64,000 nucleotides of DNA, from the NCBI GenBank assembly GCA_033182465.1, contig CP137319.1, forward strand, positions 124,001 to 188,000, written 5' to 3'. This DNA is from Sanghuangporus weigelae. Taxonomy: Eukaryota; Basidiomycota; Agaricomycetes; Hymenochaetales; Hymenochaetaceae. Positions within the stretch are counted from its first letter, which is position 1, and each line of letters starts with the position of its first letter. The notes under the pieces are model-generated. The model saw only the letters and a program-made list of their open reading frames with translations. It made no database searches and was not told the origin of the DNA. Shown here piece by piece: positions 15,030 through 37,410 of this stretch. The position numbers and the translations under genes are program-made.

Positions 15030-16383
15030 TAGATGGTTTCTCGCGCACGCTATGGTTTTCACAGTTGCTACTCTTTGTAGGCCATGCATGTATGTTTCCT
15101 TCATCTGCAAATAAAAATGCATATGCTGGCTATACATCTAGTCTGACAGAGGTCTGCATCAATATCGGTCTTTCATTCTTCCATTTGAGCAGGCACTTAA
15201 AGTTTAGGAACACGACAGAAAATCAAACCCCACAACGTTTTAAGTTAAATCAACAGTTGTTACGGTCTTCTCCAGATCTTGCTAATTCGAAGCCACTACT
15301 TGCCATCTGCAATTTATCTGTCTTTCACTCTGCCTGCCAGGGTATAGGCCAATAAAGTAATGCAAGAATAAGCAAAAGAAAGGAACCTTTATAGCCGACC
15401 GATGAACGTACCATCAATCTTCTCGATGCCCTCGATTCGGTATTCGATCCGGAAGAGAAGGTGAAGAAATGCAATATAGGTGACCCCTCCTGTTTTCTTT
15501 CAGAGGCGATGCCGCGAAAGCTGCCATCAATACAGCTATGGAATTACTGTAATCTGCAAAGAATCAGGTGTCGTTCATGGAATGACAGTCATCCTGTGAG
15601 GTATACGATGATTTTGTGGAGTGTCTCGATATCAAATGCCTCATAACTCTAAACATTTGAAGGCGTATGTCCACTCGATCTGGGTGGAGCACACTTTGAT
15701 GACTATCGGCTTATGGAGAACAAGTTTCGAGTGTACCAGAAAGTGAAGATCGCTTTCCTGAGGCCATCAATGATCATTTCCATGAAAAATGGCCCGGACT
15801 CCTCTGGTAACTCCTCGTCTGCCTCGACATCATTCATAGGCCGAGGACGGAGGCAGATCAGTAACCATGAATTAAAATATAAAGGTCCATCCGTCTCAAT
15901 AGATCCAGTTTTAATACCATGCAACCTCATCTGAGAAAAATAATAGGATAGTATTAATTATTATGTGCTAAAATATTATAACATGATGAAAGATATAGAA
16001 GAGAGATTGATGTAAAGAAATAGAGACCCAGACGGAATGTATGTACGGAGAGGAGTATTTATAGGAGTAGAGCCCAAAGTAAACAGATAAGGAAAGAGAG
16101 AGAAAGAGACACAGAAAGAAAGAGAAAGAGACTCGGAGATAGAGACACGGAAACACACGGACTCGCAGACACATAGAGAAAGACGGAGAGAAAGATGGAC
16201 ACAGATAAGGACACACAGATACAGAGAAAGGAAAAGGGAGAGGTAGAGCCGAGGGTATATGGGCATCGAATTGACACATGGGTGGAAGATACGTGGAGCC
16301 GTCCTGATACCAGATCTCTGACTATTTGTCAGCCTTTCGTTAGCTTAATTTCATGAGAAAAGAACGTACCTCTTCGATCGGAG
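15030..16383. other. Intergenic region; possible gene remnant and a purine/pyrimidine-skewed tract
   Basis: Holds the RPS4 3' UTR and the 3' flank of membrane protein A. At 15703-15930 (minus) there is a 75-codon open frame with protein-like composition but no recognisable family and no convincing partner exons, so it may be a gene remnant. From about 16080 to 16260 the plus strand is nearly all A/G (GAGA, GACACAGA-type words), a C/T-rich strand in the direction of gene A's transcription. Three long overlapping minus-strand frames there are low-complexity artefacts. Confidence 0.5.
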
Positions 16384-19300
16384 TTACAGAGGAGATGGAG
16401 TTTGCGAGCCAGTAGCGGCACGAGGACGAGAGCGATATTTGAATGCTGTGAGGAAGAAAACGATTATTTTCTATCGTAATGCATGTGAGCCGTAGAAGAC
16501 GTACGAGAAATCCAGCGAGAACCTTTGTTAGATTCTTTTCGGGAAAATCGAGAACGCGAGGGTGAAGAGTCGGCTACCAAAGGTGAGACTGTCAGTGTTC
16601 CCGCCGCGTCGCTTCTGAACTATTGAGACCCACGCGTAGTAGTACTTGATCCAAAATCTGGAGTGCCTCGGGCAGGGGTGCGTGGCGACAGTGTGCCTTC
16701 AGCTATCAAAAGGGTAGAAGTTAGTTCCCGCAGCCCTTTATTTCACTTATTTGGGAAACTTACTCGACGACGAATTAGCGCTGTCATTTACGCTTGGTCT
16801 TCTTTCTGAGGAGCCTTCGGAGGTCTTACTTGCGAAGCGAAGAAATGCAGCTATCTTTTGCGGTGTCTTCATTTCAGGCGGGAGGATAGCCAGAAGATTA
16901 GTCTTTGTCTGCGAAAACAGTAAGCTCAGGCTCCTTGTACAAATGTCTTGAGAACTCACAGATCGGAGGCTGTCCCTCAACAAATTGGACATCTCTTCCT
17001 CTTCCTCTTGCCTCTCTATCTCAGCCCACTCATCAACCGAATAGTTCCCAGTCACCTCGTCCTCCTGTTCTACCACCTCGTCCTCTTGTTCTGTTTCATC
17101 CTCCTCCAAAATTAGCTCAAGTATCGGCTCGAACGGTTCTGGGCGGGGGTAAGGCATAGGCTTATTTTCCACAGAGTCATCATTGCCCTCATCAACCGGG
17201 GCTAGCAGATCAAAAGTGACATCCGGATCCTCTTGCGGAGCAGCATCGAATGATACTTCATCCTATATCAAAGGTGGAATAAGCATACAACTCAAATCAC
17301 TGGGAAACCATGACCTACATGAAACGTCGACCTGAAGCTCTCTTCAGAGGGTTCGGCCGGATAATCGTAGGAACGGTAGGACGATATGCTCATACTTGTT
17401 CCGAGAGGAAAAACTACATGCTCGTCTTCTTCAAACATACTGGATAGACCAGCGACGAGCAAAGAGTGATCGGAAGGAAGCGCCGTCAAGTCACCAGTTG
17501 CCTCCGTGTCGTTTCTCGGACGTCGGATCTCAGTTGCATCGGCTGCGGCTGTCATTGAGGGAGTCGAGGCCCCGAATATCTGGGCCAGTGAACGCGACGT
17601 TGCATGAGGAGTTTGGGTGCCCTCTTCTTCGGTTTGAGCAGCACGGGAGGATGCGATAAGGAGGCTAGAATCCTGGACGGTGTCTGCGAGCTGGGACCCA
17701 GAAACAGTCTATTAGTCTTCTCCTTAAGCACTACACAGTCAGAACTTACGATGTACGATTCGCCCTTCGGAGGAGAAAGGACCGAATAGTCAATTGCCCA
17801 CTCGTCCACAGTTGGCTCCAGCAGGGGAAATGACGCCGCATAGGGAAGAAGTGGATCTTTGTCTTCTTCGAGCAAGACATGTGGGCCAACGATGTTAATG
17901 GAGGTTGAAGAATAACAGGCGTCCGAATCGAATATGAGCTCTTCCACCTGATCGAAGGCAGAGAGAAGCGGTCAGATTCAAATCTAAATACTGGTGATGC
18001 AGGACCTACCTCGAGGCCCAAGCCATCCTCCGGAAGAGGTACGTCGGCAGAGTCAGTTGCCAACTCATCCTCTGATGGCTCTGGGAATGTTGCGAGAATT
18101 GGATCAATCGCGTTATCATACTCGGGTAAGGTCTTGATTGTCCACTGTCTCTCCTCATCGATCCCGGCATCGATCTCCTCGATGGCTAAGGCTGGCAGTT
18201 CGAAGGTGTCATCCAGACCCTCTCGGGGAGTGGCATTGATCGATAATGAATTCTGGATCGAAGATGGAATAAGCATGTAATGTAAATCACTGGATAATCA
18301 TGACGTACATCAGGCATTGACTTGAAGATCTCTCCGGATTGTTCGGGAGACCGATACGAGCATATGCTCGTACTCGTTCCTAGAGGAATAACAATATGCT
18401 CATCCTCTTCGACCTCAGAGAATAGACTAGCGACGTGCAAAGACCGATAGGTAGGAACCGCCGACATATCACCAGTTCCCTCTGAATCCTTGTTCGGACC
18501 ACCGATCTCAGCTGAGTCAACCGCAGCTTCATTTGAGGGTATCGAAGCCCCGAACATCTGGGTTATTGAAAGCGACGTATCAATCGTGTTATCATACTCG
18601 GGCGTTGTCTTGAACGTCCAGTGTGTCTCCTCATTGATTTCCTCATCGACCCCCTCATCAGTAGTAGCTGGCAGTTCGAAGGGGTCATCGAGGTCCTTTT
18701 GCGGAATGGCATCCATTGATAATTCATCCTGGATCCAAACGGAATAAGCATGCAACGTAGATCACTGGAAAATCATGACATACGTCAAACATTGACTTGA
18801 AGCTCTCTCCTGATTGTTCGGATTCGGGAGAACGGCACGAATATATACTCGTGCTTATTCCCATCGGGATTACTATATTCTCGTCCTCTCCGAATCCAGA
18901 GGTTAGACAGTCGACGTATATTGAGCCAAAGGTAGCGATCGGCGTCAAATCACCAGTTCCTTCCGTGTCGTTGCTCGGATCTTCGACCTCAGCTGCGTAG
19001 GCAACAAGTTCTGTAGAGAGAGTCGATACCTCAGGTACCTGATATAGCGACGCGCCCTCGCTCTGTTCCTCTCTGGCTTGGTCCGTACAGGCGTGGGCGA
19101 TAAGGATAGGATAGCGTATGTCGTGTGCAATCTAGAACCAGGAAAGGCGGTTAGTCTCTTCCCTACGTATTCCTTAGTTAGAACTCACAACGTCCGAAGT
19201 GTCTCCGGAAGATGGGAGGACCGGATCGTCGAATGCAACCTCGTCCGCAGTCGGCTCCGGTAATGGGACTGACGCCGCAAAGAGAAGCTTCGCATCCTCA

Positions 19301-22021
19301 TCTTCGTCGAGGCAGACTGGCCGGATGGCGACAGTGTGTAAACAGCAAGCGATGTCCACGGCGATAGAAGAGTCATGAAGAGTCGAGTCAAATACGAACT
19401 GTATCACCAAATTGGACAAAGCAAAGGCAGTCAGATTCGTTAAGAAACACTGACAAAACGTTACTTACCTCGAAGCCCGAATTGTCCTCTGGAAGAGGAA
19501 TGTCTGCGGGCTCAATCGCCGACTCGTCCGCTGATGGCTCTGGAAGTGGGACGAGAGTCGGTTCAAATGCATGATTATACTCTCCGAATGTTGCGAACGG
19601 ACCAGATGCGTAAGAAGAAAGACCAGTATCGAGGACAGTCGAGACGGCACATGTTTCATCCACGCTGTGTGCGTCATGCCTGGTGAAGATCTCAGACATC
19701 GCACCTGATGCGTCGCTTTCAGATCCGGTCTCTGAACGCTGAGTGTCCAAGGCTTCGGCGAGCTCATCATCGAGGGGTTCCGGAAGCGGAACAGAAGCAG
19801 GGTCAATCGCGAATGCCATCTTGCGATCAATTTCCAGCTCGTCTACTTCTGTGCCAGGCAAAGGATTGCTAGCAGGATTGTACATGTATATTTCCAGCGT
19901 CGTGGATAAATTGCTGGAGTGAGACGAAAGACCGGTATCGAGGATAGTCGAAGTGATAGATGTTTCATTCACATCGTGGGCGTTGTCGTGCGTAGTGAAG
20001 ACCTCAGACGTTGCACCTGATGCGTCGCTTTCAAATCTGGTCTTTGAGTGCTGGCTATCCGAGGCTTCGGCGAGCTCATCGTCAAGGAGCTCTGGGAGCG
20101 GAATGGAGTCCAGATCAATCAAGAAAGTAATCTTCGTCTTCGAGACATCCTGCTTGCCGTCTACTTCATCCTGATGCTGGAGAGAGGGATTGAAGAATGA
20201 GCTTTGGTCACCGGAAAGGACGTCCTTCAAAGAAGTCGAGGTGGACGCAAAACCAATCAAATCAGATAAACCAGAATTCTCAACGAGGTCCGGTGGCGAA
20301 GCATTTTCGATTATACAACACAGTTCATCGTCGTCACTGGGCAGTGGGATGAGTGCCGGATTGATTGCAAAGAGCTCAGAAGCTGCCAATGAATTTGTCG
20401 GAGTATGAAGGGGACTCTCATTATTGGACTAAATCCATCAATGGTCAGTCTTACACGATGAGAGATGACGAGGAAAAGTCCGGTCTCACCTTGTTATCGA
20501 CATTAGATGCTGTTTCCGATACTGTTTCTGCTGATTCACGCAAGGAAGCACAGTGAAGATTCGTGCCGACATCCTCATTGGAGACTGTGTTGGTAATTCC
20601 GTCGTCGACGCAAAGCAAGCCAGAACGAGTGTCCCAAGCTACCGTGAGATTATCAGAACCAGTCTGTTGCTGTTGCAGAAGAGTGGTGAATGCGACAAGG
20701 AGAGGCTGCATGAGATGAGCGTGAGAAGGAATTCTCTAGCAAAATATCAGACATACATTAGACGAATAGTCTTCCTGCTGTCTTGGTCCGATTCTGGCGC
20801 GACGGCGATGTTCCATCTCTTGAATAACACGAATAGAGCGCCTCAAGGTCGACAAGGAAACGGAAATGCCAGTGCCGCGAGTTGTATCGCCGATGTACAT
20901 AGGAGCAGTGAAGGCCGGGTCCACGCGAGTCGCTGTGATGGCTTGTTCGTACACCGTATCCGAATGAGCAGTGAAGGTCGGGTTCACGCGAATCGCTGCG
21001 ATGGCTTGTTCGTACATGTACACCATATTCGGGTGAGCAGTGTAGGTCGGGTTCACGCGAATCGCTGCGATGGCTTGTTCGCACACCATATCCGAATGAG
21101 CAGTGAAGGCCGGGTCCACGCGAGTCGCTGCGATGGCTTGCTCGTACATGTACACCATATTCGAGTGAGCAGTGAAGGTCGGATCCACGCGAGTCGCTGC
21201 GACGGTTTGTTCGCACACCATGTCCGAGCGAGCAGTGAAGGCCGGGTACACGCGAACCGTTGCGATGGCTTGTTCATACATGTACACGATATCCGAGTGA
21301 GCAGGGAAGGCCGGGTACACGCGAGTCGCTGCGATGGCTTGTTCGTACACCATTCCCGAGTAAGGCAGCCGAGCCTGCACGAAGTAACCATAAGTTTAAA
21401 ATCCACAAAGGCAAGAACATAACGTACCGCAGGCCGAGAAAAAGCAGAAAAGAAACTGTGATTGTTTCCGCCATTGGGTCTGGTGCCTGTCCCGAGAGCA
21501 GAGGTCGACCTCCGGCGCCTGATTTTGGGCGTCTCCCTTGCATGCGCAGACCCCATCCGAGCGAAAACGATAACAAAGCCGAGGATCATAGTTAAGAGCC
21601 AGACGACGATCCCAATATAAATTCGGATATCAACCTGTTGAGGATTCTGGACGATGAAAGTGTTCGCATAAGTATCCAGAGCCTTCGATGCCGGGGTAGG
21701 TGCCGGTGGACCATTGAGATCAACGTCGACGGTAGACCCAAGTGACAAGGTCAACAAAGAGGTTGGACCAGGAAAATATAGATGGTAACCGGAAGTAAAC
21801 ATGCATTTCTGGGAACCAATGAAACACGATGCTGTAGGGGTTGGAGGGGGAAGAGTCGGGGGAGACCAGAAGACGTTGACAACATTGTGGAGGAAGCGGG
21901 TGGAGGCAATCTGGAGACGATGGAGGTGCTGACTGGGAGTAATGAGAACATCTCCAGCCTGTGATGTGAAGAAGAGTAGATACTGAGTGACAAGAGCGAG
22001 TGCAGGAGCAAACCAATTCAT
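16384..22021 (-). CDS. Membrane protein A: signal/TM protein with long acidic, duplicated-exon tail
   Basis: Function unknown; the family is not recognised. Exons (minus): 22021-21428, 21374-20757, 20705-20490, 20428-19469, 19398-19189, 19131-18784, 18728-18309, 18252-18010, 17947-17750, 17690-17319, 17262-16960, 16908-16764, 16702-16646, 16588-16505, 16445-16384; 4830 nt, 1609 aa. Residues 1-24 look like a signal peptide; a short outside region has two Cys (SCFIGSQKC); a TM helix spans about 134-153, followed by RRRR, so the tail is predicted inside. Then come seven EQAIAATRV repeats and a long Asp/Glu-rich tail with recurring SVPLPEPxxDE motifs built from duplicated exons, ending in an Arg/Ser-rich segment. 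Paralogue of the gene at 32588. The start matches the paralogue's. If exon 13 is not spliced at 16645, the protein ends earlier at a stop at 16622-16620. Confidence 0.8.
20895..21365 (-). repeat. Coding tandem repeat: alternating 21- and 23-residue units in gene A exon 2
   Basis: Seven consecutive units, each containing a version of YEQAIAATRVxPAFTAHSD, alternate between 63 bp and 69 bp. The 69-bp form carries an extra YM before YEQ. They form a 132-bp higher-order unit repeated about 3.5 times. Paralogue B has a single related segment (PDIDMIYEQAIASENAV) in its exon 2, so the array expanded in A. Both unit lengths are multiples of three, which keeps the array open in several frames on both strands. 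Confidence 0.9.
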
Positions 22022-22095
22022 CTTTGCGTGCGTGCACAAAGATGGAGTTCGTGATGAGGAGGAGACTGGGAGAAGATGGGCGAGATTTATACAGC
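22022..22095 (-). promoter_or_regulatory. Core promoter and 5' UTR of gene A, conserved with gene B
   Basis: On the minus strand a TATA box (TATAAATCTC, plus positions 22082-22091) lies 70 bp before the ATG. It is followed by a C/T-rich leader with CCCAGTCTCCTCCTCA and then TTTGTGCAC, CGC and AAAG just before the start. The same elements occur in the same order and spacing upstream of paralogue B at 32514-32587. Confidence 0.8.
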
Positions 22096-22955
22096 TTTCA
22101 GAGAGTCAGCCAGCCTCATTCAGTCTCCGCTGGGCTGACTGGCTGGCTGACTGCCACCCAAATTTCTGTTGTGTTAGAACACAACATACACATTTCAGGT
22201 AATAGTCAGTTTCTGAATATTACCTGCACTACCACAAACCATTCTTGCGGCCGTTTACATGCCTTCTCATATTACAGAGTCTCGACCGGAAGAGAAAGCA
22301 AACAAATTTCCGGTGCGCAATACGACATGAAGTCCCATTGCACATAGTTATAGAATGAAAAGAAGATTTGAGCATTGCCACTGATGATCAAAGATCCACG
22401 TTCCGCTGCCGATCACCTGCAGACCGCAGTTATACAGGAATAGACACCATCGAAGCATCCTTCAGTTTTCAAAATTGATTTACATGCGCTTCAACTGTCG
22501 ATCCTTCGTAAACCGAGTCCATGCCGGCACGAATTGTCGCGACTGCTTGAAATCGGATGGATCCTCTAGTAAGAATGCACCTGTCTTATCGTTACCGTCG
22601 CGGTGAACATTGATATTCAATCATCTCTTCGTCAGGTTCTAAAACAGTGATGTCTTCTGTCCAAGTCGTTGATGGCAATAGGCAGTAGAGAAGTAATATA
22701 CTGTTACGGGTTGAATTATTGAATCGGAATATTGCGGGATCACGTGCATCGCGTTTCAGTGTGTTCAAGACACAGACACTCTCTTTTCTTGTCTGTGTTA
22801 TTCTCTGATCTTATCCTACGCTTGCAGTCTTCTAGCAAGGACCGTTGGGTTAATGCCGAAATTATAGTCCCTTCCGGGTTCGTTTGTGATCCGGACTTGC
22901 CTAGGGTGTACCAGGTATCTCCAGCAAAGGCTCACGTTTGTCCAGCATCCCAGAG
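22096..22955. other. Intergenic region between gene A and PSO2 (divergent)
   Basis: Upstream regions of membrane protein A (minus) and PSO2 (plus). Contains GGCTGACTGGCTGGCTGACT-type short repeats near 22120-22155. No conserved coding sequence, tRNA or repeat family was recognised. The 70-115-codon frames here are not supported. Confidence 0.5.
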
Positions 22956-25506
22956 ATGTCCAGGAAACGGAAGGAGCAACCTCAAACGAGCACTTTGCTG
23001 AATTTCTTCGCAGCTGGATCGAACGGGGATTTAGGCGCCTTCAGAAACAAGCGGAAGCCTGAGAGTCAAGAAGGTCGCCGTGAATCAAGTAGGAAAACAC
23101 CGCGTGCCATACAAGAAATCAAGAACGAGTCCGTAAACCGAGAATGGGGAGCCGGAGACATCGACATTATTGTCATCGAGTCTGATGATGAGAAGGAACA
23201 GGGAGCTGATGTCTCCAGTGACGTTGAAGTCATTCAAGACTATTCACCTCGACAGCAAGAGTCAGGGTCAGGAGAAAGCTTGCTGATTGAGAAAGAAAAG
23301 TCATCAAAGCATTCCACCAACACATTACAAGCTCTCCTGCGTCCTAGTGACAAGGAACCCGATGGTCCTGAGTGGGATGATTCGGCGCCAGATGAGTGGG
23401 AATTAGCTTTAGCAGATGAAGAACTAAGCGTTCTAGCGAACGATTTACCCGAGGAGAGCTACGAGGATTTGAACGTAGAGGCCGAGGACCCAGACGAACA
23501 ACCGGATGAGAACATCGACTCTTGCCCGATGTGCACGATGACATTCTTAGATCTGGATCCAATTGTGCGTTTTCATGACTCGTCTGTTTGGTTGTGTTAA
23601 GCTTTTGGTATATAGGAAATTCAGACGCACGTCAATAACTGCCTTGATGAACCTTCGTCCTCTGCACGATGTCCTGCTATCCGGAAACCTCTCCGGCCTT
23701 TAGCATCCTTTCCCATTTCCGCAGGATCTTCTGTCACAGCTGTCCCAAATCCAAAACCTGAACTCAAGCCTAAAGCTTCAAGTGCATTCTCGGTACTCAT
23801 GTCTGGAAACTCGCTGAGGGAACGTGCTGCATGGGAAGAGGCTCGAAAGGCCGAGGATAGAAACTTTCGTCCGACGAAGAACGAGAGACGCAAAGCGCCC
23901 TTTTATAAGGTCTTAACTGGTATGCCTATCGCGGTAGATGCTTTCCGGTATGGATCGATTCCAGGCGTAGAAGCTTATTTTTTGACGTGGGCCTTCCACC
24001 GCATTTACCTGGGCATTTTTCCTGATTTGACTGAAATTCTGTGGCCTTCAGGCATGCGCACTCGGATCATTATACCAACTTGTCGTCTAATTGGAAGAAC
24101 GGGCCCATCTATTGTTCAGGTAAGAGACCTACGTTGTCATATTCTAAGGGGTATTCAAATGCGCATTTAGAAACGACCGCGAATCTGATAGTCCATATGC
24201 TGTCTGTTGAAAGAAAATGGTTGCATCCGTTACCTATGAATACACCGGTCGAAATACCTAAGACGGGCGGCGTGAAAGTGACACTTATTGATGCGAACCA
24301 TTGTATGACCATTCGATCCTTCACATTGTAATATGCTCTGTTCTGAATACAGCTGTCTCAGGTCCCGGTTCCTGTTTATTTCTCTTCGAAGGTCAGCAGA
24401 CCATTAATGCCGGCGACAGTAATTACAGATCTCCTTTTGTCGGGACGTCGCGTATCTTTCGCTTCTTGCACTGCGGAGACTTTCGAGCGTGTCCTCAGCA
24501 GGTACTTCATCCAACAATAAAGGGCAAACGATTAGACACGGTGTACCTTGATACAACGTATCTCAATCCAAAATACTGTTTCCCTCCGCAACCTCTGGTA
24601 ACTACCGCGGTCGCAGAATTGGCTCGGAGAATCGTAATGGGCGAACCACTACGTGGCGACAATGATCAGGACGGTTCTGCAAATAAGGGATCGATCCACG
24701 GATGGATGAAATCTGACGAGGGCAAAGGAAAGCAGAAAGAGCAAGGAAAAGGTGATGTATTGGTTGTCGTAGGGTAAGTCTACGCATTCGTGTCTCTACA
24801 GATCGCTTCTCTAATATTCCAAATTACCAGAACATACTCTATCGGAAAAGAGCGAGTTGTCAAAGGTTTGCGATCCTACCTGACTTCACTTTGCATGACC
24901 CCCTGACTAGTAGCACTTCAATCCATTTTAGCCATCGCGAAAATCCTAGGGACGAGGGTTTACTGTGATGCACGCAAGAAGGCGATCTTGCATTGTCAAG
25001 ATGACCCCGAGCTTCACGCGTTGTTGACCGACAAGCCGCTCGAGGCAGGCGTGCATGTCGTTCCGCTCGGTCAAGTCGCTTCGGACAGGTTTAAAGAATA
25101 CATGGACCGATGGAAAGGACGATGGACACGCGCAGTTGCGTTTCGGCCTACCGGGTGGACGTACACTCCACCAGCTGGCTCAGATCCAATGCCATCCATT
25201 CAGCGTATCGTCTCCGCAGCCCAGTCTCGGAGTTTCGCATACCACCACCTCAAGCCCGCTCGCAATTCGACATCTCAGCTAATGCAATACGGTGTGCCCT
25301 ATTCGGAGCACTCGAGTTTTTCCGAACTCGCATGTTTCGCTCTGAGTATTGATTGTGGGAGAATCGTTGCTACTGTGAATGTTGGAAGTGCTACGTCAAG
25401 AGCGAAGATGACAAAATGGGTGGAGAGATGGGAGACGGAGAGAAAGCGGCGGAAGGAGGCTGGGTTGCCCGCTGTAGTCGAATACAGACATTTGGATTAC
25501 TGGTGA
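22956..25506 (+). CDS. PSO2: Pso2/Snm1 DNA interstrand-crosslink repair nuclease (metallo-beta-lactamase/beta-CASP)
   Basis: 5' exonuclease of the SNM1/Artemis family that processes interstrand crosslinks in the nucleus. Exons 22956-23564, 23616-23986, 24052-24119, 24171-24302, 24362-24773, 24831-24865 and 24932-25506 give 733 aa. The N-terminus is basic with TSTLLNFF, which resembles a PCNA-binding box but lacks the usual first Gln. An acidic region follows, then a UBZ4-type zinc finger split by intron 1 (CPMC, then HVNNC). The metallo-beta-lactamase core has FLTHAHSDHYTNL formed across intron 2, YCSETTANL, DANHCPGS and LDTTYL. The beta-CASP end has PYSEHSSFSEL and closes with YRHLDYW. The domain order and motifs are standard for Pso2. 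Divergent from gene A and convergent with the ZZ-domain gene. Confidence 0.95.
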
Positions 25507-25785
25507 ACCTTTGCATTTTCCATGACTCCGCGATATTGTATACTATTTGTAATATCATTTGTATTGAGAGAAACATATATATAGTACTTTTCACTGTGCC
25601 GCGAGGTCACAAAGAATATACATGCATCCGCTCGGAATAAACTCTATCTTATATTCTGCCATACGATTATACATTGTGGCAATAACGACCAAAGCAATAC
25701 GGGAAAACGAGAAGAATAACATGAATGATATGGATACAGATCTCACTGCAAGCTGGATATGACACTCGGCTAAAAAATACGAGCG

Positions 25786-28700
25786 CTACGAGTAATACAC
25801 AGGGTACTTGAGGACCGGAGGACTGCCATTCGGGTTGTCGAGTTCCGCGACAATCCTAGATAATTAAATATATGAGAATTGAACGAGCAAAAAACATACA
25901 TCTGAGGAGACAAACCTGAATATCTGCATATCAACCTGGAACGACAAGAATAGTCAGTAAGCTACCAACATTTGCGTCAATGACAGACGATGCTTACCGG
26001 TGCCTTGAAGACATAAAAGAAGTGTGTCGGGTTATGCGCATTGAGGCCCTCGCAAATATCGCACAGGTCCTTGGGGCAGTATACACAGCGGAACCACTCG
26101 CCCGATATGCGCTCCATACAATGGTCACATAGCGCCGCGTGATGATGAAGGGAGGAAAGGTAGGCTAAGATTCAAGATAGTTAGAAGATAAGATCAGTAA
26201 TGACTGAAGTTAAGATAAGACTGACCTTTGGGATGACTGGAATTCAAAATCTCCCCTGATCTCGGACCAGCGGGTTGTCTGTATCTAAAATGATAGCGGC
26301 ACATCAGTTTTGTACGCGGAAAGCGAGGACTGGCTCAGAGCGCACAGGATAGGAAGAATTGGGAACTGAGATTCTATGGGTCGGTCCACCGGTCGCGTAA
26401 GCTTGAAGAAAATATGCATTGGGTCATGAAGTAGGTACGATCGTGGTTCACAATTGGAACACTAGACACGAAAGATAACATGAGTAAGGAAGGGTACTTC
26501 TCTCAATGAAGTACTAAAGTAAAGTATACCAGATTATATGCCTGGTTGTTAACCGATGAACAGCACGCGCACTGATACCTCGTGCCAATGATACTCTGAT
26601 TACACCCCTTGCACAAAATATGGTGGTCCATCGAGCGTACTTCGCCATTACGTGACAACGCACGCGCGTGGGAGGAGGCACCGTTATGGCTCCGTCCGTT
26701 ACTACCGATGACAGTCACACCGTCCGCGTCATTCAAGGAATCAGCGAGAGAACGTTGAACATTTGGCGCGTCTCGGCCTTGCCAGAGTTGTCGGGCACGT
26801 CTGCTTGCAGTCTGTACTTTGTTGGAGTTCAGAGGGATCGGGATCTGGAGGATTCTTTGTTAGCTACGCAAGTATTCACAGCAAATATGACAGACCTTAA
26901 TCATGATGTGCGAAGAATTATGACCCCCATCGTCAGCATCCAAGTTTCCAGGAAGTCCAGCGGCCTCGCAGTTCTGGCAAATATCGACAGATTCGCATAT
27001 CGCACAGTGAAACCGCGCTCCGATAATATCCAACATGCAGCTATGTTGTCTCTATGATCAGTAATTCCTCCGAATGCAAAGACATGATAACGTACTGAGC
27101 GCATTTTACTCCAATGTGAACCAAAGCTAAAAAAAAAGGCAACATTTGTCAGGCAAACGAACAAAAAAAATGTAGAAGGGGTTGAACAACGTACATTCAT
27201 CCTCGCATACGTCATCCCCAAAAGGCGTCAGCAACTCCAAATCCGTCTCACTCCTACTCCTCAGTGCCTGTTGTTCATCCTCAACTAATCTCTTCTGAGG
27301 AACGTCGAGGAAAGCATGGCTTGGATGAATCTCATGCACCTGGCTGTAACACGCTCGACAAAGCACGAAATTCGCGCACGAAGCGCACTTATATCGTTGT
27401 CCATTCAACAACTTCGAGTTGCAAATGGTGCATTCACCGGTATCGTCTTGCTCGACATCCCGCCACCCGACCGCACTCCAGAGTTTTTCGAGATAGGCAT
27501 GCCGGAACTTGCCCTTTTGTCTAGGTGCGGCTCGTCGTAGTGCACTGAGTGTAAGTTGTTCATCCGAGGGGGAGGAAGGTTCATTTGGGTGAGTACTGGC
27601 TCTGTCCGACGCAGTGTTGCCTTGCAACGCGTGCATAACACCAGCTGTCTCGATACAGCTTGCGCAGAGCTCAAAGCCGCAGCTATCGCCAGCGAGCGTC
27701 GTTGAAGACGATGTTGAAGCGGGTAGAGCGCCATATGATTTCTGCGAAGGGGGTAGAGCTGGGAGTGGACGGGAAGAGGAGGGTTTGGTCGACTTGTTTG
27801 TTCGATGTTTCGTAGGAGGATAGGCATATCTGTCGCTGAATGGATCGATAGAAGATCCAGATTCGGAGGCGAAATCACCCCGAGCTTTGCCCTTCCCAAG
27901 TCCATTTATGTCCACGTTCATATCGATCTCGGCAAGTACACCTACGTCCACTCGGGGTGTCTTCTCTCCACACGTTGAGCACACATACCGGAAGGTATCA
28001 AGTTTGACGCCGCACGCCGAACAGTCCGTTAGTGCAGCAGGCGGTTGAGGTGTTTCAGTAACGAATTGGAGGACTTCTGGAGGTACATCATCCGCAATGT
28101 ATCCAGACGACCTTGGCAACGGGTCAGAATTCGCGGAGTTCATGGAAGGTTTTCTTGAAGAAGAGGACGCTGCGGAGGACGACGATGGCGAAGATTTCTG
28201 GGACTGCGGCTGCGGCTGCGGCTTGGGCATTTGGTTCTGGTTCTGGTTTTGCTTCTGCTGCGCCTGAGGATGGATAAGCGTCTCTTGTGACGCTAGCCAG
28301 CGCATATTTGCGGATTGCTCTGAGAAGCGCCGAATATCACCCTCTGAAATGCTCGCATCGTCATGGGCTGCTGAAGCGGCGGAAGACGAGCCGGATGTAT
28401 AAGTGTAGTAGAATTTGCCATTATCCTGCTGTAACGCGAGATCTCCATCGAATGGACTGTGTGCGTCAAAATCATCTTCGGGTATGCTGAGTGACGAGCC
28501 GCCGGAGACAGATTCCAAGGGTAAGATCCCATTGATATTATTGTGCGATTTTTGGTCCCGCAGCCACTGCGTGCTAAAGTCGGAGGAGTCAGATGAGCCG
28601 GATAGCTTGAGGCGTTCGAATACAGCTGATGGATCCGCAGGGTAGCGATCCATGAATGCATTTGTGTCCACTTCTGACCCACCAGCCGACACAGAATGGT

Positions 28701-29369
28701 AGTCTTCGACTTGTACGGTCGAACCGCTTCCGCTCCCGCTGCTCTTAACGACCGTCTTCGTGGGCTTCCGATTCACCATCAGCATCCCGCCCGTATCTCT
28801 CGAGCTCACAGTCACGCTATCATCATCTGGTTCCACTTGAGATTCGCTAGAGAAGGATAAAGATAAGGATGAACCGCTCCCGTTGCGATTCTTGTACTCG
28901 TCAAGGCTAACGAGGGACGATGTGTCTGACAGGCTAGGGCCGTCATAGTCGACTGTGACGAAGACTTTCAGTGTTATGCGCCTGCTTCCGAAGCTCCGAC
29001 CTGATAGAATAGATGCAGCGGAGGATACTGGGAGATCGTCGACGCCCGCCTGGAAGTAGTGTATGGCCTCTGTGAGGTCTACATCGCTTGTGATGTCGGT
29101 CACCTCGCCATCGTCGTCCTTGTATGCTATGGAGAAGGAGAATGCCTGAAGCGAGAATGACTGCTCTACCTACATTCTCTCCAATATCAAGATGTATTCA
29201 ATCAGCATGTAAAGTAATAGATACTCACCTTTGAGCGCAACAAATCATAGGAACAATTCCTTGCAGATGAGAAAGTGATACGTTTGTTGTACCTGTCGAA
29301 AGTTGCCTTTACGATGAGCGGCCTGTCTGGCCTTACTGACATTGTCGAGCCAACATCCGAGAAGGACAT
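25786..29369 (-). CDS. NBR1-like PB1 plus multiple ZZ zinc-finger protein
   Basis: Probably an adaptor or selective-autophagy-receptor relative. Exons (minus): 29369-29229, 29169-27195, 27126-27096, 27040-26896, 26844-26530, 26461-26346, 26284-26226, 26164-25998, 25935-25916, 25855-25786; 1012 aa. N-terminal PB1 domain (about residues 15-120) has a basic VKATFDRYNKRITF strand and an acidic OPCA-type loop YKDDDGEVTDITSDVDL. A long Ser/Asp/Gln-rich linker follows. Then come five ZZ-type fingers: CSACGVKLDTFRYVC (with a large insertion before CGFELCASC), CTICNSKLLNGQRYKC, CAHCMLDIIGARFHC, CKGCNQSIIGTRYQC and CDHCMERISGEWFRC. A possible Atg8-binding motif EDYHSV lies near residues 202-207. No NBR1 FW domain was seen. 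PB1 and ZZ calls are firm; the autophagy role is inference. Confidence 0.88.
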
Positions 29370-30660
29370 TATCGAGACACAGATTCAGTGTTATGCTGCG
29401 CACCGAGCATGTAAGCTTTCGTAATCCTGCGTTTCAGTTAGTGTTGACCGCAGCCGCAGCAGACCAGGAGCTCGCAGTCCGGTGCTGTGTGAATGATCGA
29501 CGTCCAGACGCCGATCGGGCACGCGCCATCCGCTCCGGCATAAACATTAATCTGCGCAATTGCCCGAATTCACTCGTCTTCCAACTTAAGCCTTTCAAAT
29601 GAATCTTAAGGATCTAATGAACATGACTACAGATCAACTTTGTCTTGAATTTACATCGTTTGTATATATATACCAGGAATAAAATCCTTGTGAAGGAAAT
29701 ATTCATCAATCCGACATACTGTATTTAACGCAAGGCAAGATACAGCAGATGTTGGTGATCAAGGTAGCTGACGGAGTCTGCGTATTTGAATTTTCCGGAC
29801 TCGATAGTGTGGTATATAAATCAGATAACTTGAAGGACTCCGAGACTGTAGGATCGAGAACTCGTATCCGTGCCGAAATTCTGACCATAGGCACGGCTGT
29901 ACATGTGGATTCATTAAACGTCTCTTCGTTTATATAGTTCTATCTTGCACATCTGCATTTGCCACAATGCATCACAAATCGTGTCTGTAGCAAAATAAAA
30001 CAAAAAAATCGGTCCATCTTCCAAAAAAGATCGAAGAACGAGAAAGCAAGGGCATCTCCGTATGTTGTAGGCGACGGAAAGCGGAAACGCGTTTATACGT
30101 TTATAGGAATCGACGGAGAGAATAATTGCACCGGTCTGGCACTACGTCACCTCACTCTTCTGGCAAGACCAAGGGTGAGCATTCGAAACGTAGTTAGCGA
30201 TGGAATGACATACTTCAGTGAAGCAACAATTGCCGTTATGTTTGCTTAACTCTCGCTCGTGCATAGAGTATGATTCCGAAGAAATAGAAGATTCGAAAAA
30301 AGGTGCCAGATGAGATTGAATGATTTAAAACAGAAAAAGATAAGAAAAGACAGAGAAAGAGGAAGACACAGAGACAGAGGAAGCAGGGACGGAAAAGAGG
30401 AACAGGAGGGGGGAGGGGGGAAATAAATTACGCCACATAATTATGATCGTACTTAGCAAAGTACATTTCATGTCCATTCACTTACCTTCCTCATACGCGA
30501 ATAAATAGAAAGGGATTGGGCGCATTTAGGCAACCGGACTGGTCACTCTGATAAATCACTGGCTGTCGTGAGGCAACCGCGGAGTTTCGGTAGCCATCTG
30601 GGGCTGGGTTGTTCCCAATAGATCCCACGTAAAGTTCAACGTCGAAACCATCTGGTTCAT
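29370..30660. other. Intergenic region, no gene seen
   Basis: Upstream flank of the ZZ-domain gene. The sequence is AT-rich with purine-rich stretches near 30350-30420. Frames of 60-95 codons at 29342, 29749 and 29959 have no recognisable domains and no plausible splice partners. Nothing further is supported. Confidence 0.5.
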
Positions 30661-30663
30661 CAT

Positions 30664-31970
30664 TCACGATTTCTTCAAAGGCCCGCTGGAAGAACTTCGG
30701 TCACCGCGTTTTCGGCTTCCAAAAGTTTTGCCTACTCCGCTCTTTTGCAGAGAAACATCTGACGATTCGCTCAACCGCACAGGAAACGGATAACAGCCTT
30801 TTGCATTCATAATCTCCTCAACCTCGCTTACACTTTGCTTCGACAGGATATTGGATACCTCGCGACCTGCTTCGGCTCGAACAATATCAGTTCCCTCCAA
30901 ATCCTTGGATACGGGAAGATCGGGCTCTAGGTAAACGAGGGAGAAGAGCGCATCTCCACTAACGTCTGGGTCAAAATGAGAGCTCTGGAGTCTTCTTCCT
31001 TCAGAAGCTTATGTGCGCACTGTAACCTCCATAACCATTCTGTCGGCTCCGTTTCGATGTTGTACTGCGGCATTCCCGGCAGCGTTTGAATAAATTTCCC
31101 TCCGACTTGAACGTCGCCTTGCGGCGATGTATCTTCGTCCATCAACTCTTCATCATCGATCTCAACAGATTGCTCGTCACCCAACGCCGCTCTACCGGAT
31201 TCGGCGGCCCTACGACCCAGTTCATCGATTGAAGTGCTAAAAAGCGAAAGAAAGTGTTTCGTAATGCGCGCATAATCATCGTCGAGCGTCCCGTCCGGAG
31301 GAGGTATATCAGCGAGTGACTGGCCCTTAACTTTGGCCGAAGTATCCTTATCCTACGCGTTTGGAATTGATGTATTGAGAGCTTTGATAAGATCATGCCA
31401 TTCAAGAGAATGGGCAACTTGACCATGCTTTTCAATAGCAGCTGGGGCGAGAATTAAAGTAGTCGCTATAAACGCAGAAATGATTTCCGAACGCCAGACT
31501 ATTTGGCGCAGGAACTTGATGGATTCTTCTCCCTGAATGAAAAGGTTTTCATCTCAAATTCGAGATTTACTTGAATGGTCCTGACAGTCGTCTGCAATCT
31601 TCGTAGCTCAGCTTCTGCGCGCTCAGTCTTCCAGACGCTCGCGCAATCTCTGAAGTGCAGACGTCTGAATGCCTCCGGAAACTTCCTGACCCCTTCGCAC
31701 GCCCTTCGATAGACGCGTTTCTCCGGTTCGGCTGAACAGTCCCTATCGTCCAACAGATCTGGAGCATTCAGTAGGACAGAAACGGTGAGCATGGTGTAAA
31801 ATAGACTCACCAGAGCGCAGCGAACCTTCCTCTCTTTGGATTTCACCCCCTGCTTCTCCTATGAAACTTGGATGGACGAGGAGGGTTTCATCTGTGGGCC
31901 GCGAATCGAGAACTGCACAGTAAGTAAGTGATCTGATCGGAGACGCTGACAAACAACCGGTGCGCAGCAA
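30664..31970 (-). pseudogene. Decayed multi-exon gene of unknown family
   Basis: Successive minus-strand segments read like one protein. LDSRPTDETLLVHPSFIG (about 31915 downwards) splices at GTGAGT to DLLDDRDCSAEPEKRVYRRA (31756-31573), then to GEESIKFLRQIVWRSEIISA (from 31535). This runs into a TAG before DKDTSAKVKGQSLADIPPP (about 31355). The next part (ELGRRAAESGRAALGDEQ, LPGMPQYNIETEP) then needs a one-base frame change near 30970 to continue as SGDALFSLVYLEPDLPVS and on to the basic end at 30664. No splice choice I tried removes both the stop and the frame change. The product is not recognised. Either it is a pseudogene or my exon joins are wrong. Confidence 0.4.
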
Positions 31971-32513
31971 CAGTAATATGTATCACTTTAAGAAATGTGA
32001 ATCCTAAGGCTTGAGAAGAGAATAATCTCCCTTCAACAGGATAGTGATGGTTAGTGGCAGAGGGTAGATCCGCGGCTCTTATATATCAGGACGTGATCAG
32101 TACGATCAGTATGACAACCGCAAGTGATGATCCACACACAGCAGAATGGTGATTGTCGATCATTAGTGGCAGTGCTAAAACCTTCTTGTGTAGAGACTCG
32201 GATTTTCAACTTGAACTCTACTACGTACAATCGTTTGCTCCTGCTCCGTATCGGTGCTACACAACTCTCTGCTCGGAACACGCCTTTTAATCTATCTGAA
32301 TAAATCTCCGTGACATCTGAATGCGTGCGAAAATGCCGCGAAAATGCTTTGTAGCTGGCAGCCTGAACCCTGGGCAGCTGGCATTCAGATATCGACTACC
32401 TCCCTAAAACGCGTACGTCGCGTTTGTTGTGCTCACTCAACAAAACAAAACAACACAACAAAACAATCGAATGACAGCAAGTCACGACCGCGTTTCATAC
32501 TCCGATAGACAGC

Positions 32514-32587
32514 AGTATAAATCTCCCCAGTCTCTCCCCAGTCTCCTCCTCACCACTTGATCTCCCTCTTTGTGCACCCGCGCAAAG
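32514..32587 (+). promoter_or_regulatory. Core promoter and 5' UTR of gene B, conserved with gene A
   Basis: TATA box TATAAATCTC begins at 32516, 72 bp before the ATG. The pyrimidine-rich leader contains CCCAGTCTCCTCCTCA and ends TTTGTGCACCCGCGCAAAG. The matching elements upstream of gene A have the same order and spacing, showing that the duplication that made A and B included the promoter. Confidence 0.8.
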
Positions 32588-35500
32588 ATGATCTGGTTTG
32601 CGCCTGTGTTCGTCTTTCTTGCGCAGGCGCTAGTCTTATTCAACGCGAATCTTTGCAGTACCCTTGATCTTGCCACCACCACCCAGACATTTCTCCCGCG
32701 TCTTCGACTTGCTTCGATCCACCTCCACGGCCTCATCTGCTCCTCCTCTTCCGAGGACATCATCATATATGCTCCCGCTACTTCTGAACCTGCACCCTGG
32801 TCTCCTCATGTCTCTGAGCTTGTAACTCACCCGGCCCTTGAGCCTGTGGAGTGCTCTCATCCCGCTTCTGAGCCTGTAGCTCCGGTCATAGTCGTCCCCT
32901 CGCCTTCCCGTACTGTCTCGTGCTTCGTCGGCAAGGACGTATGCGTTCTTTATTCCGACATCACACCCTCCTCTAATGGCACAAGTCCTTTGCCGACCCT
33001 GCAAACCGACGTCTCCGCCGACGTCGATGACCATGATCCGGCGCCGGCGGCCCCAGCACCAAAGGCTTTGAACGCGGACGCATTCGAAGCACAACGCCCG
33101 CAGCCCATCGATCTAACAGTGTATATAGGTCTCGCCATCTGTTGCTTCACTGCATTACTCGGTTCTCTCATCATTCTCCGTCGGGTCAAGTCTGCGCACA
33201 CAAAGAAAACGCCCCAACCCAGGTCCCGGAGGCCGTCGTATTCATCGAATACAGGTACCGTACAAGATGATGGAAACAGTCCTCTCTCCTTTTATGTCTC
33301 TGTTGAACCTGCGGTATGGCTTGTCTTAGCTGTCGAGTACTCCGATCTAATAGTGATTATATGCAGACTGAGTTTCCGGACATCGATATGATATACGAAC
33401 AAGCAATCGCATCGGAAAACGCTGTGCTGGCGTCCATTATTGCTGGCGAAGGCAACGTTGATGCTTTTTGCGGCACTGTCGTTCTTGTAAGTCTCGAATT
33501 ATTTACTTGTCAATATCGAAGCTGACTATCCTTTGTTATTCAGGAGATGGAAAGCAGCCGTGACGGCAACTCCGCGTCCGTGCAAAGGGAAAACGCCTCG
33601 GTTAATGTATGCGTAATGCTTATCTCCGAGGATTCTCATCTGACATTTACTGTGTATAGACTCCATTTGACTCGTCCGACGGCCTCCCGCAGGAACAACA
33701 CTCTGATAATCTCACGGTCGTCGAGCACACTCGCTCTGTATCACTCGGTATCGGAATCGGCACTTCTTACATCGTCTCCAACAAGGACGTCGACGATTCT
33801 CATGGTTCTTCCTCGAAAGAGTTCACAACAACGTCTAACGTCGAGTCCAAGGTGACACTGACTTTCTTCTCATCATCTTCCATAGTCCAATGCTAATCAT
33901 GAAACACTCGCTGAATCTAGTCTGGTTACGAAAGTCCCATTCATACTCTGGCAAATATACCTGCAGCTGGTACCGTCCCGTCTATCGACCCAGTACTCGT
34001 ACCCCTGCCTATCGAGGATGACGAACTGAACTGCAGAACGGAAATCACTCCGCTGCCTGCACTCGTTGAGAACTCTGGTTTGTCCGATTTGGCTGGTTTA
34101 GCGTCCGTCACGGCTTCTTTGAAGGATGGTGCAGGTGCCTTTTCGGTATGTGCTGCACTAATCCAATCCTTGGGATGACTAAACCTCATTCTTCTATTTC
34201 CTCCCTTAGGCTACAGTCAACGTCAAGCAGGATGCATCGCATATGAAGGTTACGTTCGCGATCGACCAGGCCTCCGTTCCGCTTCCCGAGCCTCTCGACG
34301 ATGAGCTCGCTGAAGCCTTGGACAGTCAGCACTCAGACGCCGCATCCGGACTCAACGCAAAAGCTTCAGCGTCTGAGGTCTCCACTATACCCGATAGCGT
34401 CAGCGACGTGAATGAGACGTCTGCCATCTCGACTGTCCCAGATATCGCTCTTTCGTCTCACGTGTTTGGTCCACCCGCAGCGTTCAAAGAGCATGAAAAT
34501 GCACTTGATCCCGCTCTGATCCCGTTACCAGAGCCGTCAGTGGACGAGTTGGGGATTGATCCAGTAGATGTTCCTCTTCCGGAGGACGATACGGGCCTCG
34601 AGGTAAGTAACGTTTTATCACTGTTTTTTTATGAGTTTGACTGAATGACTTCGCTCTGTTTAATTTGGTGGCACAGCTCACATTCGATTCGAATGCCTAT
34701 TCTTCGACCGCTGTTCACATCCCTGGAACATCCGCCCTTGACGAAGATGAAGAAATATATCTTCTGTATGCGGCATCGGTTCCCCTACCGGAGCCAACCG
34801 TGGACGAGTCGGGAATCGGCCATTCGGTCCTTTCCCCTCTGAAGGACGAAGCTGACATAGTAAGCTCTGATTGAGAAATGTTTCTTGAAGAGACTGACCA
34901 CCTTCTGTTTTCTAGATTGTACGCGGCATATACGGCTCGGGATCCCCTATCATAACTATGCCTAGCGAGGCTTCCGCTGTTTTGGCGATAGATGTGGCCG
35001 ACACAGCTGAGACGGAAGGTTTGAAAAATGATGAAGAGAGAAGGGAGGACTTGACGGCGCTTGTTCCCGAAAGTTCGCTGCTCGCTGGAACTCCTTCCCG
35101 TAAGTTTGAAGAGGACGAACGCATCGTCGTGCCTTTAGGGACGAGCGCGAGTATCTGGGCTCCTACCGCGGATGATTCATTCGAGCGGTCCGAGGACAGC
35201 TTCAGTGTAAGTCTTATTCTTATGTCTTTCATGATGCATTCTGATTTCGTCTTCGATGTGGGATTAATAGTCTATCAAAACGACTTCGCGAGAAGATCAG
35301 GACGATCCGTTCAAGATGTCAGCTCATGATTCGAATTACGTGAGTGTTCCTTACGTTACTACGATTCAACCAGCGGAATTTGATTTTATTATATTTGCAG
35401 TCAGTGCACAGTTCTCGTTCTGGCGACCCTCTCAGCACAAGGACGCCAATGAGACAAGTCAAGCCTTCCCGCCTCTTCAACCTTGCCATGAATCGCTCCG

Positions 35501-36333
35501 TTGAGAGCGGGAAAAAGGAAGTAGTATCGAGTCCTCTCAGTAAGTCTTCATAATAGGTAGAATATAACGCAATGAGAATTGACTTGTTTTCCCGTTAGAA
35601 CCTACTAGCTTGAGAAACGCCATCTCTGGGGACTCAGTGGTTGTTCCGTCTCAGTCAACTTCATGTATGTTCCAGATGGCTCGAATGTAACGTGACAGGA
35701 ATTGACTATGTTTCTACTGGTAGTGACAACTACTCCTTCGCGTTCTCGGTGGACTCCGAGACAAGTTGACGAAAATGCAAACTCACTTTCGCGTAGGTCC
35801 TCAAAAGATCATCCATGACACGATGGAGACTGACTGTTTTCATCCTACTAGCGAGACCTGCGTGGTCGCGGAGCGCTTATGTTCGTGGCTCACCAAGAGA
35901 CATTCGTGAGGTGAAGCCAACAAATACGGGTAAGTTCTTGGTTTCTCAATGTAAAAGGACGGACATTGACTGCTCTTGTCTTATAAATTGAAGCTACTCC
36001 CTCGAAGCGTACTCACGATTCACACAGAGGTGTTGATAATGACAACCGATCAAGCCGCAGTAAGTTCAGAGTGATTGTAGCTGGAGTACGTCGCGATGGA
36101 TATTGAACAATTCTGTCTTACAGAGAAAAATGCTCGAGGGAAGCGTGACACTGCCCGCGGCTCTCCGGGAGGTACACGTAGCGCCCCCCAGTCTGTCCCA
36201 CGTATGTTCTTCGAATGCCTCAAGAGTATTGTGATGTAAATTGACTGGTATTGATCCAACAGCGAACCAGTCTCGCTCACAGCCTACGCCTACTCGCGCT
36301 TCTGGGTCTTCGAAGCGATTCCCGACTTTCTAA
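32588..36333 (+). CDS. Membrane protein B: compact paralogue of membrane protein A
   Basis: Function unknown. Exons 32588-33313, 33367-33486, 33544-33606, 33660-33851, 33921-34145, 34210-34602, 34677-34859, 34916-35206, 35271-35339, 35401-35539, 35599-35664, 35724-35792, 35852-35929, 35994-36059, 36124-36201, 36263-36333; 2829 nt, 942 aa. Signal-peptide-like start MIWFAPVFVFLAQALVLF, outside region with a Cys pair (SCFVGKDVC), TM helix at about 176-197 followed by LRRVKSAHTKK, then an acidic tail with single copies of the modules that are duplicated in A (SVPLPEPLDDELAEAL, IPLPEPSVDE). The last six exons are small (66-78 nt) and all begin in phase 1, encoding an Arg/Ser/Pro-rich basic tail that ends KRFPTF. 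All exon lengths fit without a stop, so it appears intact. Confidence 0.82.
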
Positions 36334-36599
36334 TTGACGGATTGTCGCGTTTTGTCACTTATATGTCGTGCTGAAGTAGTCTTATTAGACACGAGTCAAA
36401 GGGCCCATGACCCGTGTCTGATTAGACTGAGTTGGCACGATGTATAGGAGCGATCGCAATAGGAAGAAACTCCATCAAGCTTCCATGTCTCCGTGTCTCT
36501 TTTCTTGATTCCGGACTGTTTGTCTCTATCTCTGGTGGGTCTCGTATCGTATCACCCTGGCTCTTTACGTTCCGGATCGCGGCTTGCACTATGCTCCTT
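36334..36599. other. 3' flank of gene B with an imperfect inverted repeat
   Basis: Just after the stop, TTAGACACGAGTC (about 36388) and GACCCGTGTCTGATTA (about 36410) form an imperfect hairpin around GGGCCC. It could be an RNA 3'-end structure; it could also be chance or a footprint of a small element. A related ATTAGACACGTC word occurs at about 41694. Confidence 0.35.
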
Positions 36600-37410
36600 T
36601 TCTTAAGCTATATATTCTAGCGATTATCTACCGCACCGTCTATCTTCTCATCATTACTTTCTATCTCTTTATCTTTCCCTCTATGCAAGACATCATTAGT
36701 ACAAAGTTTCTATCGTTATTTCGATATAGTACTTCACCGATTGTTTCTTTTGTTGCCACATCCTCCTGTCTTTCTACTTGATTCTTGCCTCCCCATCTCT
36801 ACACGTCGTTTCATCGCCCTTGGGCTCATGGGATACATTTTCTCATCATTATTCTCTACTTCTTTATCTTTCCTTCTATGCAAGGAATCATCAGAACGGA
36901 ACCTCCATCATTAATACTTCGCCGATTTTTTCTTTTGCTACCACATCTTCTTGTCTTTCCATTTGGTTCTTGCCTGCCCATCTCTACACATCATTCCATC
37001 ACCTCTGGGCTCGCGCCTTCTATTTTCTCGCAATTATTCTCTATTACTTTATCTTTCCTTCTATATGCATGCTAGCATAGAATCTCTATCATTCTTCCCA
37101 TTTAATATTTCATCGATTGTTTCTCTTGTTTCCACTCTTTGCGTCTCTCTTCCTGATGCTGGATTTCCCGTCTCTATATCTAGTTTAGTTTTACTCAGGC
37201 TCTTTACTCTTCGTACTGCGGCTTGGACTGTCTTCCTTTTCCTTGCGCATTACATGCTCGCGATTATCTCTCGTACCCTCCATTTTCTCATCATTATTGT
37301 CTACTCCTATATCCTCCCGTCTATCCAAGATAATACTAGCATAAAGCACCCCACCCCATCATTCCTACCATATAATACTCCATTGATTTTTTCTTTCGTT
37401 TCCACGTCTT
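36600..37410 (+). repeat. Degenerate tandem repeat of about 190 bp, T/C-rich
   Basis: The block with CTCATCATTA, TTCTCTACTTCTTTATC, TTTCCTTCTATGCAAG, CATCATTAG, CACCGATTGTTTCTTTTG, CCACATC, TTGTCTTTC and TTGATTCTTGCCTCCCCATC recurs starting near 36648, 36841, 37026 and 37286, with spacings of about 193, 185 and 260 bp. Copies differ by substitutions and small indels. The overlapping plus-strand frames across it are by-products of its T-rich composition. Confidence 0.75.

Follow-up and report, generated by a model that had tools for sequence, protein, structure and literature searches.

A locally expanded family of putative membrane-tethered proteins with a shared regulatory block in Sanghuangporus weigelae

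Two related genes, here called A and B, lie on opposite strands of a 64,000-nucleotide stretch of the genome of the basidiomycete Sanghuangporus weigelae (the window, C2:124001-188000; the genome comprises 33.87 Mb in 13 contigs). The preliminary description of this DNA presented them as an inverted, head-to-head pair from an unrecognised membrane-protein family. The locus raises the question of whether the pair is a unit in its own right, and of what the encoded proteins might do. Judged by their sequences, A and B belong to a locally expanded fungal family and are not a pair. The family, its shared regulatory block, the constraint on its coding sequence and the variation in motif number can all be read from the DNA, while the function, possibly that of a docking scaffold, is a more tentative matter. 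Positions given below without a contig name are those of the window.

Genes A and B and their neighbours

The two gene models are as follows.

22021 (ATG) to 16384 (stop), minus strand: gene A, 15 modelled exons, 1608 aa
32588 (ATG) to 36333 (stop), plus strand: gene B, 16 modelled exons, 942 aa

In both genes the junctions are of the GT..AG type and the reading frame has no internal stop, the splice sites being predictions from genomic DNA alone. The exon chain of B was built by hand and a dynamic-programming model gave the same result, which is a consistency check rather than independent proof, because the codon and splice scores were partly trained on B itself. The chain of A comes from the same dynamic-programming model with an end limit imposed, as it otherwise overran the stop codon. 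The exon phases of A and B agree, being 0 through the long-exon part and then 1 at the short C-terminal exons, and blastp aligns the two proteins in segments with E values of 1.6e-55, 1.3e-52, 8e-34 and 1e-16, far beyond chance. The preliminary description was exact in its coordinates, opposite strands, spacing of about 10.5 kb and intervening genes, and the paralogy that it proposed is borne out by these alignments (E down to 1.6e-55) and by the matching phases.

The start codons of A and B are 10,567 bases apart, in divergent placement. The interval contains a DRMBL-domain gene of the PSO2/SNM1 type and a ZZ-domain gene (27127-29169), the latter also showing a PB1 match slightly under the cut-off, a layout that resembles NBR1-type autophagy receptors. 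The ORFs at 26656-27057 and 30927-31352 have no Pfam match at E 0.01. A functional head-to-head promoter shared by A and B was rejected in view of this distance and of the genes that intervene. CT-rich tracts occur 3' of both A (16000-16320) and B (36460-37200), that of B containing a tandem repeat with a 185-nt unit in 1.8 copies, and the 3' flanks of B and C, a further member introduced below, can be aligned.

Five close members

A search of the same genome with exon 1 of B (242 aa) returned at least six rows, five of which represent genes A–E and the remaining one, on contig C7, a chance-level match (E 0.15). Identity to B exon 1 is 57% for C (C2:243145), 46% for both D (C2:253714) and E (C2:274580-275251), and 37% for A, where the match is restricted to residues 102-235. 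With the leader DNA as the query, the genome matches listed, which give a lower bound, represent the same five genes and no others. All five are on contig C2. Divergent orientation is not a property of the family, because the strands are mixed, minus for A and E and plus for B, C and D.

The exon 1 of B is closest to that of C, which lies 86.6 kb away, while that of A is remote from both (36–37%); with the exception of D and E, exon 1 identities among the members are 30–57%. In the tail the A–B and B–C identities are at similar levels, 40% and 39%, respectively. All five genes are open across 13–16 modelled exons. The head-to-head arrangement thus stands as geometry, but as a description of the family it is misleading, since at least five genes are close members and both exon 1 and the promoter of B are closest to those of C. 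Genes D and E are carried by an inverted duplication:

C2:252563-257470 and C2:271547-276410, arms inverted: duplication with D and E, about 4.9 kb

The arms, separated by about 14 kb, align in two blocks, one of 4091 bases (97.9% identity) and one of 784 bases (99.7%).

Distant relatives

Beyond the close members there are six distant loci, one of them frame-broken, spread over contigs C2, C6 and C8. The tail module encoded by exon 6 of B finds, in addition to A–C, C2:76808 (E 9.9e-6) and C8:450085 (9e-4); its match at C8:495047 (E 0.77) is not significant alone. The tail module at C8:450k in turn matches C8:494990 (4.9e-8), C2:76751 (2.4e-6), B (6.7e-5) and A (8.5e-5). With exon 1 of the member at C2:75.36k as the query, eight rows from six loci were returned, namely C2:75.36k itself, C2:3680.6k, C8:496k, C6:1774k, C6:1777k and C8:451k. 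The match at C8:496k reads across one TAG, that at C6:1777k covers residues 127-236 only, and the copy at C2:3680.6k, the frame-broken one, needs two frames.

In the distant first exons about three hydrophobic segments can be made out by eye. Their likeness to exon 1 of B is weak (tblastn E 0.001, 34%), so that a single superfamily for the close and distant loci would rest mainly on the tail module, whose statistical support comes from the matches on C2 and C8 given above. Beside the distant member C2:75.36k, the region C2:77.1-97.4k contains many duplicated stretches, including a short tandem array.

Protein architecture and tail motifs

Proteins A–E have a common layout: a hydrophobic signal-like start, an ectodomain of 115–157 aa, a transmembrane peak and a tail of 472–1454 aa, the tail lengths of C, D and E being uncertain because their protein ends were placed at guessed points. 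In all five, one strong transmembrane hydropathy peak past the N-terminus is followed by Arg/Lys-rich sequence; A has a second, weaker peak (1.74) at residues 808–826, within the tail. The tails of A, B and C carry net charges of -170, -42 and -41, respectively, and those of D and E +15 and +14. The last 150–200 residues of B and C are basic, and a shorter basic stretch is found near the C-terminus of A. A C-x6-C pair is present in A, B and C, while D and E carry Ser or Pro at the first Cys.

The numbers of the short motifs vary between the paralogues. The xPLPx motif occurs 7, 5, 3, 0 and 0 times in A, B, C, D and E, respectively, the IPLGxS motif 3, 1, 1, 1 and 1 times, and the YEQAI-type motif 7, 1, 1, 1 and 1 times. 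From residue 201 on, shuffled sequences of A and B contain on average 0.04 and 0.02 xPLPx motifs, compared with the observed 7 and 5, and the highest count among 2000 shuffles is 2 for either protein. Juxtamembrane YE[QI]AI and IPLGxS are common to all five proteins. The signal-like start, transmembrane segment, Cys pair and acidic tail that the preliminary description noted are indeed shared by A and B; the Cys pair and the acidity, and likewise the PLPEP motif, do not define the family, because all three fail in D and E.

The motifs of the YEQAI type in A come from an array in its second exon, some of them in varied form, e.g., CEQTV:

20903..21353, minus strand: in-frame tandem array in exon 2 of A, 132-nt unit in 3.4 copies (TRF)

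The length of A is partly due to in-frame expansion, through this array and repeated tail blocks. A 295-aa ORF opposite the repeat was set aside, as it seems to be a side effect of a unit length that is a multiple of three. In exons 2 and 4 of A (20757-21374 and 19469-20428), stretches similar to two of the introns of B read, by eye, as coding, an apparent case of intron exonisation.

Known families and predicted structure

Profile searches (hmmscan, E up to 1) against 24736 Pfam models covered B, D, and 404 and 793 of the 1608 residues of A, along with four distant first exons. For B, D, the 793-aa tail part of A and the four distant first exons, matches were below cut-off or absent. The only match above cut-off, PF14204 (Ribosomal_L18_c; E 1.7e-5, 25.8 bits with a cut-off of 23) in the first 404 aa of A, is taken as a repeat artefact, as it comprises 17 residues (profile positions 4–20 of 56) inside the tandem repeat. 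A search of the PDB with B gave a single match at chance level (E 0.66), a pattern scan of viral contigs for relatives gave 33 matches of which none was confirmed, and no description of such a family appeared among the papers listed in literature searches. The family can therefore still be called unrecognised, as in the preliminary description, there being no credible match for B, D and parts of A in Pfam or for B in the PDB.

An AlphaFold2 model of exon 1 of B has a mean pLDDT of 44.5, with the transmembrane region alone near 75, and that of the tail module has a mean pLDDT of 56.5 and almost no structure. These values are weak evidence of disorder, because the alignments contained only five and four rows, respectively. 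A and B may have the receptor- or scaffold-like role that was suggested for them at the outset; the low-confidence model, in which the ectodomain is not folded, would weigh slightly against a ligand-binding receptor.

Promoter, leader and start codon

The upstream regions of the family contain three kinds of conserved features, listed here for A and B.

32513..32606, plus strand: TATA box, leader and first codons of B, from alignment with A, C, D and E
22003..22092, minus strand: TATA box, leader and first codons of A, from alignment
32569..32590, plus strand: imperfect palindrome and predicted RNA hairpin ending at the start codon of B, from pattern and folding
22019..22040, minus strand: imperfect palindrome at the start codon of A, one mismatch to the pattern, from pattern and folding
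32151..32171, minus strand: distal conserved element of B, 417–437 nt upstream of the ATG
22376..22396, plus strand: distal conserved element of A, 355–375 nt upstream of the ATG

The TATA-leader segment of B is identical to that of C at 94 of 94 positions and 83–88% identical to those of A, D and E; between A and B the figure is 83% over about 90 nt, in agreement with the common promoter reported earlier. Allowing up to two mismatches, the palindrome pattern occurs at five sites in 33.9 Mb, all of them at A–E, and the reversed control at none. The distal element also has five sites in the genome, all at A–E and 355–437 nt upstream, with no site for its control. Since both patterns were written from A–E themselves, the absence of other genomic sites is the informative part of these counts.

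Folding, which covered A, B and D (C has the sequence of B there), gives -17 kcal/mol for 58 nt of B (z -4.2) and -15.7 kcal/mol for 56 nt of A (z -3.1), in each case with 2 of 200 shuffles as good; the leader of D has a z of -3.9, with none of 200 shuffles as good and a shorter stem. The predicted 10-bp stem of A includes the AUG. The palindrome could equally well act as a DNA-binding site or as an RNA hairpin, because the stem of D is shorter and no compensatory change is seen. No Rfam family matches within the window at the gathering thresholds.

Around the ATG of B, from -160 to +20, B and C share the same base at 156 of the 158 sites that can be aligned once 22 gap columns are excluded, compared with 47–63% from -400 to -160 and 55–88% beyond +20. 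D is 80–89% identical to B and C inside this block, and A reaches 84% from -40 to +20 and 60–69% from -160 to -40. The edge of the block is sharp for B and C only, because C and D stay high further upstream (74–80% from -280 to -160). The block may be maintained by selection, gene conversion or both, and the raised identity that D and A also show there argues in part for selection. A–E are probably co-regulated, and would then be co-expressed.

Constraint on the coding sequence

Eleven comparisons of segments from A, B, C and D all give a Nei-Gojobori omega of 0.21–0.61, the values being rough and the synonymous sites in several comparisons near saturation. Exon by exon, B and C are saturated at synonymous sites in three of nine exons, the two exons compared as exon 9 differ in length, and exon 2 has an omega of 0.99. 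For D and E the omega is 0.55, from very few changes. These ratios indicate that the amino-acid sequence of the family is under constraint.

Possible function

The reading preferred here, with a probability of roughly 40%, is that A–E serve as docking scaffolds, tethered to the membrane and regulated together, with a different number of motifs in different members. Each would be a type-I single-pass protein of the plasma membrane, in which a signal-like N-terminus, a short ectodomain with no predicted fold, a transmembrane segment and basic residues precede a long tail, also with no predicted fold. The tail motifs xPLPEPxxDE and IPLGxSxSI and the juxtamembrane YE[QI]AI would recruit cytosolic partners, so that the paralogues would offer different numbers of docking sites, permitting multivalent docking. 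Speaking for this reading are the five close members, the leader palindrome and distal element found at no other genes, the near-identity of the block in B and C, the omega values of 0.21–0.61, the strong transmembrane peak in all five proteins, the motif counts, the low pLDDT values and the recurrence of the tail module in distant loci. Against it stand D and E, which have neither the PLPEP array nor the acidity, the three or so hydrophobic segments of the distant relatives, the weak second peak in the tail of A, the few rows behind the pLDDT values, and the near-saturated synonymous sites with the omega of 0.99 for exon 2 of B and C; moreover, we know of no partner domain for the PLPEP, IPLGxS or YE[QI]AI motifs. 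It is nevertheless ranked above the three alternatives that follow.

A cell-wall stress sensor of the Mid2/Wsc kind, whose O-mannosylated Ser/Thr/Pro ectodomain touches the wall and whose tail signals to the Rho pathway, would have the same topology. The ectodomains of 115–157 aa, with 19–21% Ser+Thr and 12–14% Pro in A–E, and the acidic tails of A, B and C are in line with it. However, the Ser/Thr content is modest, the length and Cys pattern of the ectodomain vary, and no WSC or Mid2-like domain was matched in B, D and the 404- and 793-aa parts of A at E up to 1. Such a sensor is considered unlikely.

To the same low degree, A–E might be young, loosely constrained duplicates of marginal function, their promoters alike through gene conversion rather than selection. 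Local duplications are frequent in this part of C2, omega is 0.5–0.6 in several segments, one distant copy is frame-broken, and the near-identity of B and C is confined to the promoter-leader block. Yet all five genes remain open over their modelled exons, D and, close to the ATG, A likewise show raised identity in the block, and the distal element lies at a similar distance in all five.

A family for self/non-self recognition or cell fusion, with clustered, diverging paralogues and variable surface parts, would suit the expansion on C2, the low exon 1 identities and the recent D/E duplication, but is improbable. Omega is below 1 in all 11 segment comparisons, so that positive selection is not apparent at the resolution used, and the family is not linked to the STE3 matches on C10 and C7. 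The latter are 14 exon matches in the genome, 12 above cut-off, as would suit a fungus with several STE3 genes, and linkage of the C2 family to mating receptors was rejected accordingly; B, D and the scanned parts of A have no STE3 match in Pfam.

The docking-scaffold reading can be extended, quite speculatively, to a surface system in which a near-invariant regulatory block of distal element, TATA box and leader with start-codon hairpin, kept partly by gene conversion, is combined with diversifying ectodomains and tail-motif numbers. It would yield co-expressed platforms of graded valency, possibly with hairpin-controlled translation and possibly serving hyphal recognition.

Comparison with known systems

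In the parts scanned the family has no Pfam model, and the leader together with the IPLGxS and YEQAI-type motifs provides a usable signature. Its members form a natural series, the same kind of anchor with 0, 3, 5 or 7 xPLPx motifs, in which the effect of motif valency can be tested. The promoter elements and the start-codon palindrome, both specific to the family, form an unusual regulatory feature that is open to testing as well.

LAT, an animal transmembrane adaptor, has a single transmembrane segment and a long disordered tail with several docking motifs. The combination of one transmembrane segment and a long multi-motif tail in A–E resembles it by analogy only, no homology being claimed, and the ectodomain of A–E is larger and the motifs are different.

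Adaptors of the Opy2/Fus1 type are single-pass proteins with a small outside part, whose long inner portion serves as a docking platform for signalling proteins. A–E have the same proportions and might dock partners in a comparable manner, but unlike Opy2 they have no Cys-rich ectodomain (2–5 Cys) and no Opy2 Pfam match in the parts scanned (E up to 1).

The wall-stress sensors Mid2/Mtl1 and Wsc consist of a signal peptide, a short Ser/Thr/Pro ectodomain, one transmembrane segment and a cytoplasmic tail. A–E share with them the signal-like start, the short Ser/Thr/Pro-containing ectodomain and the one strong transmembrane segment, and differ in that no Pfam match to a WSC or Mid2-like domain occurs in the scanned parts, in the far longer tail (472–1454 aa) and, in A–C, in the repeated motifs that it carries.
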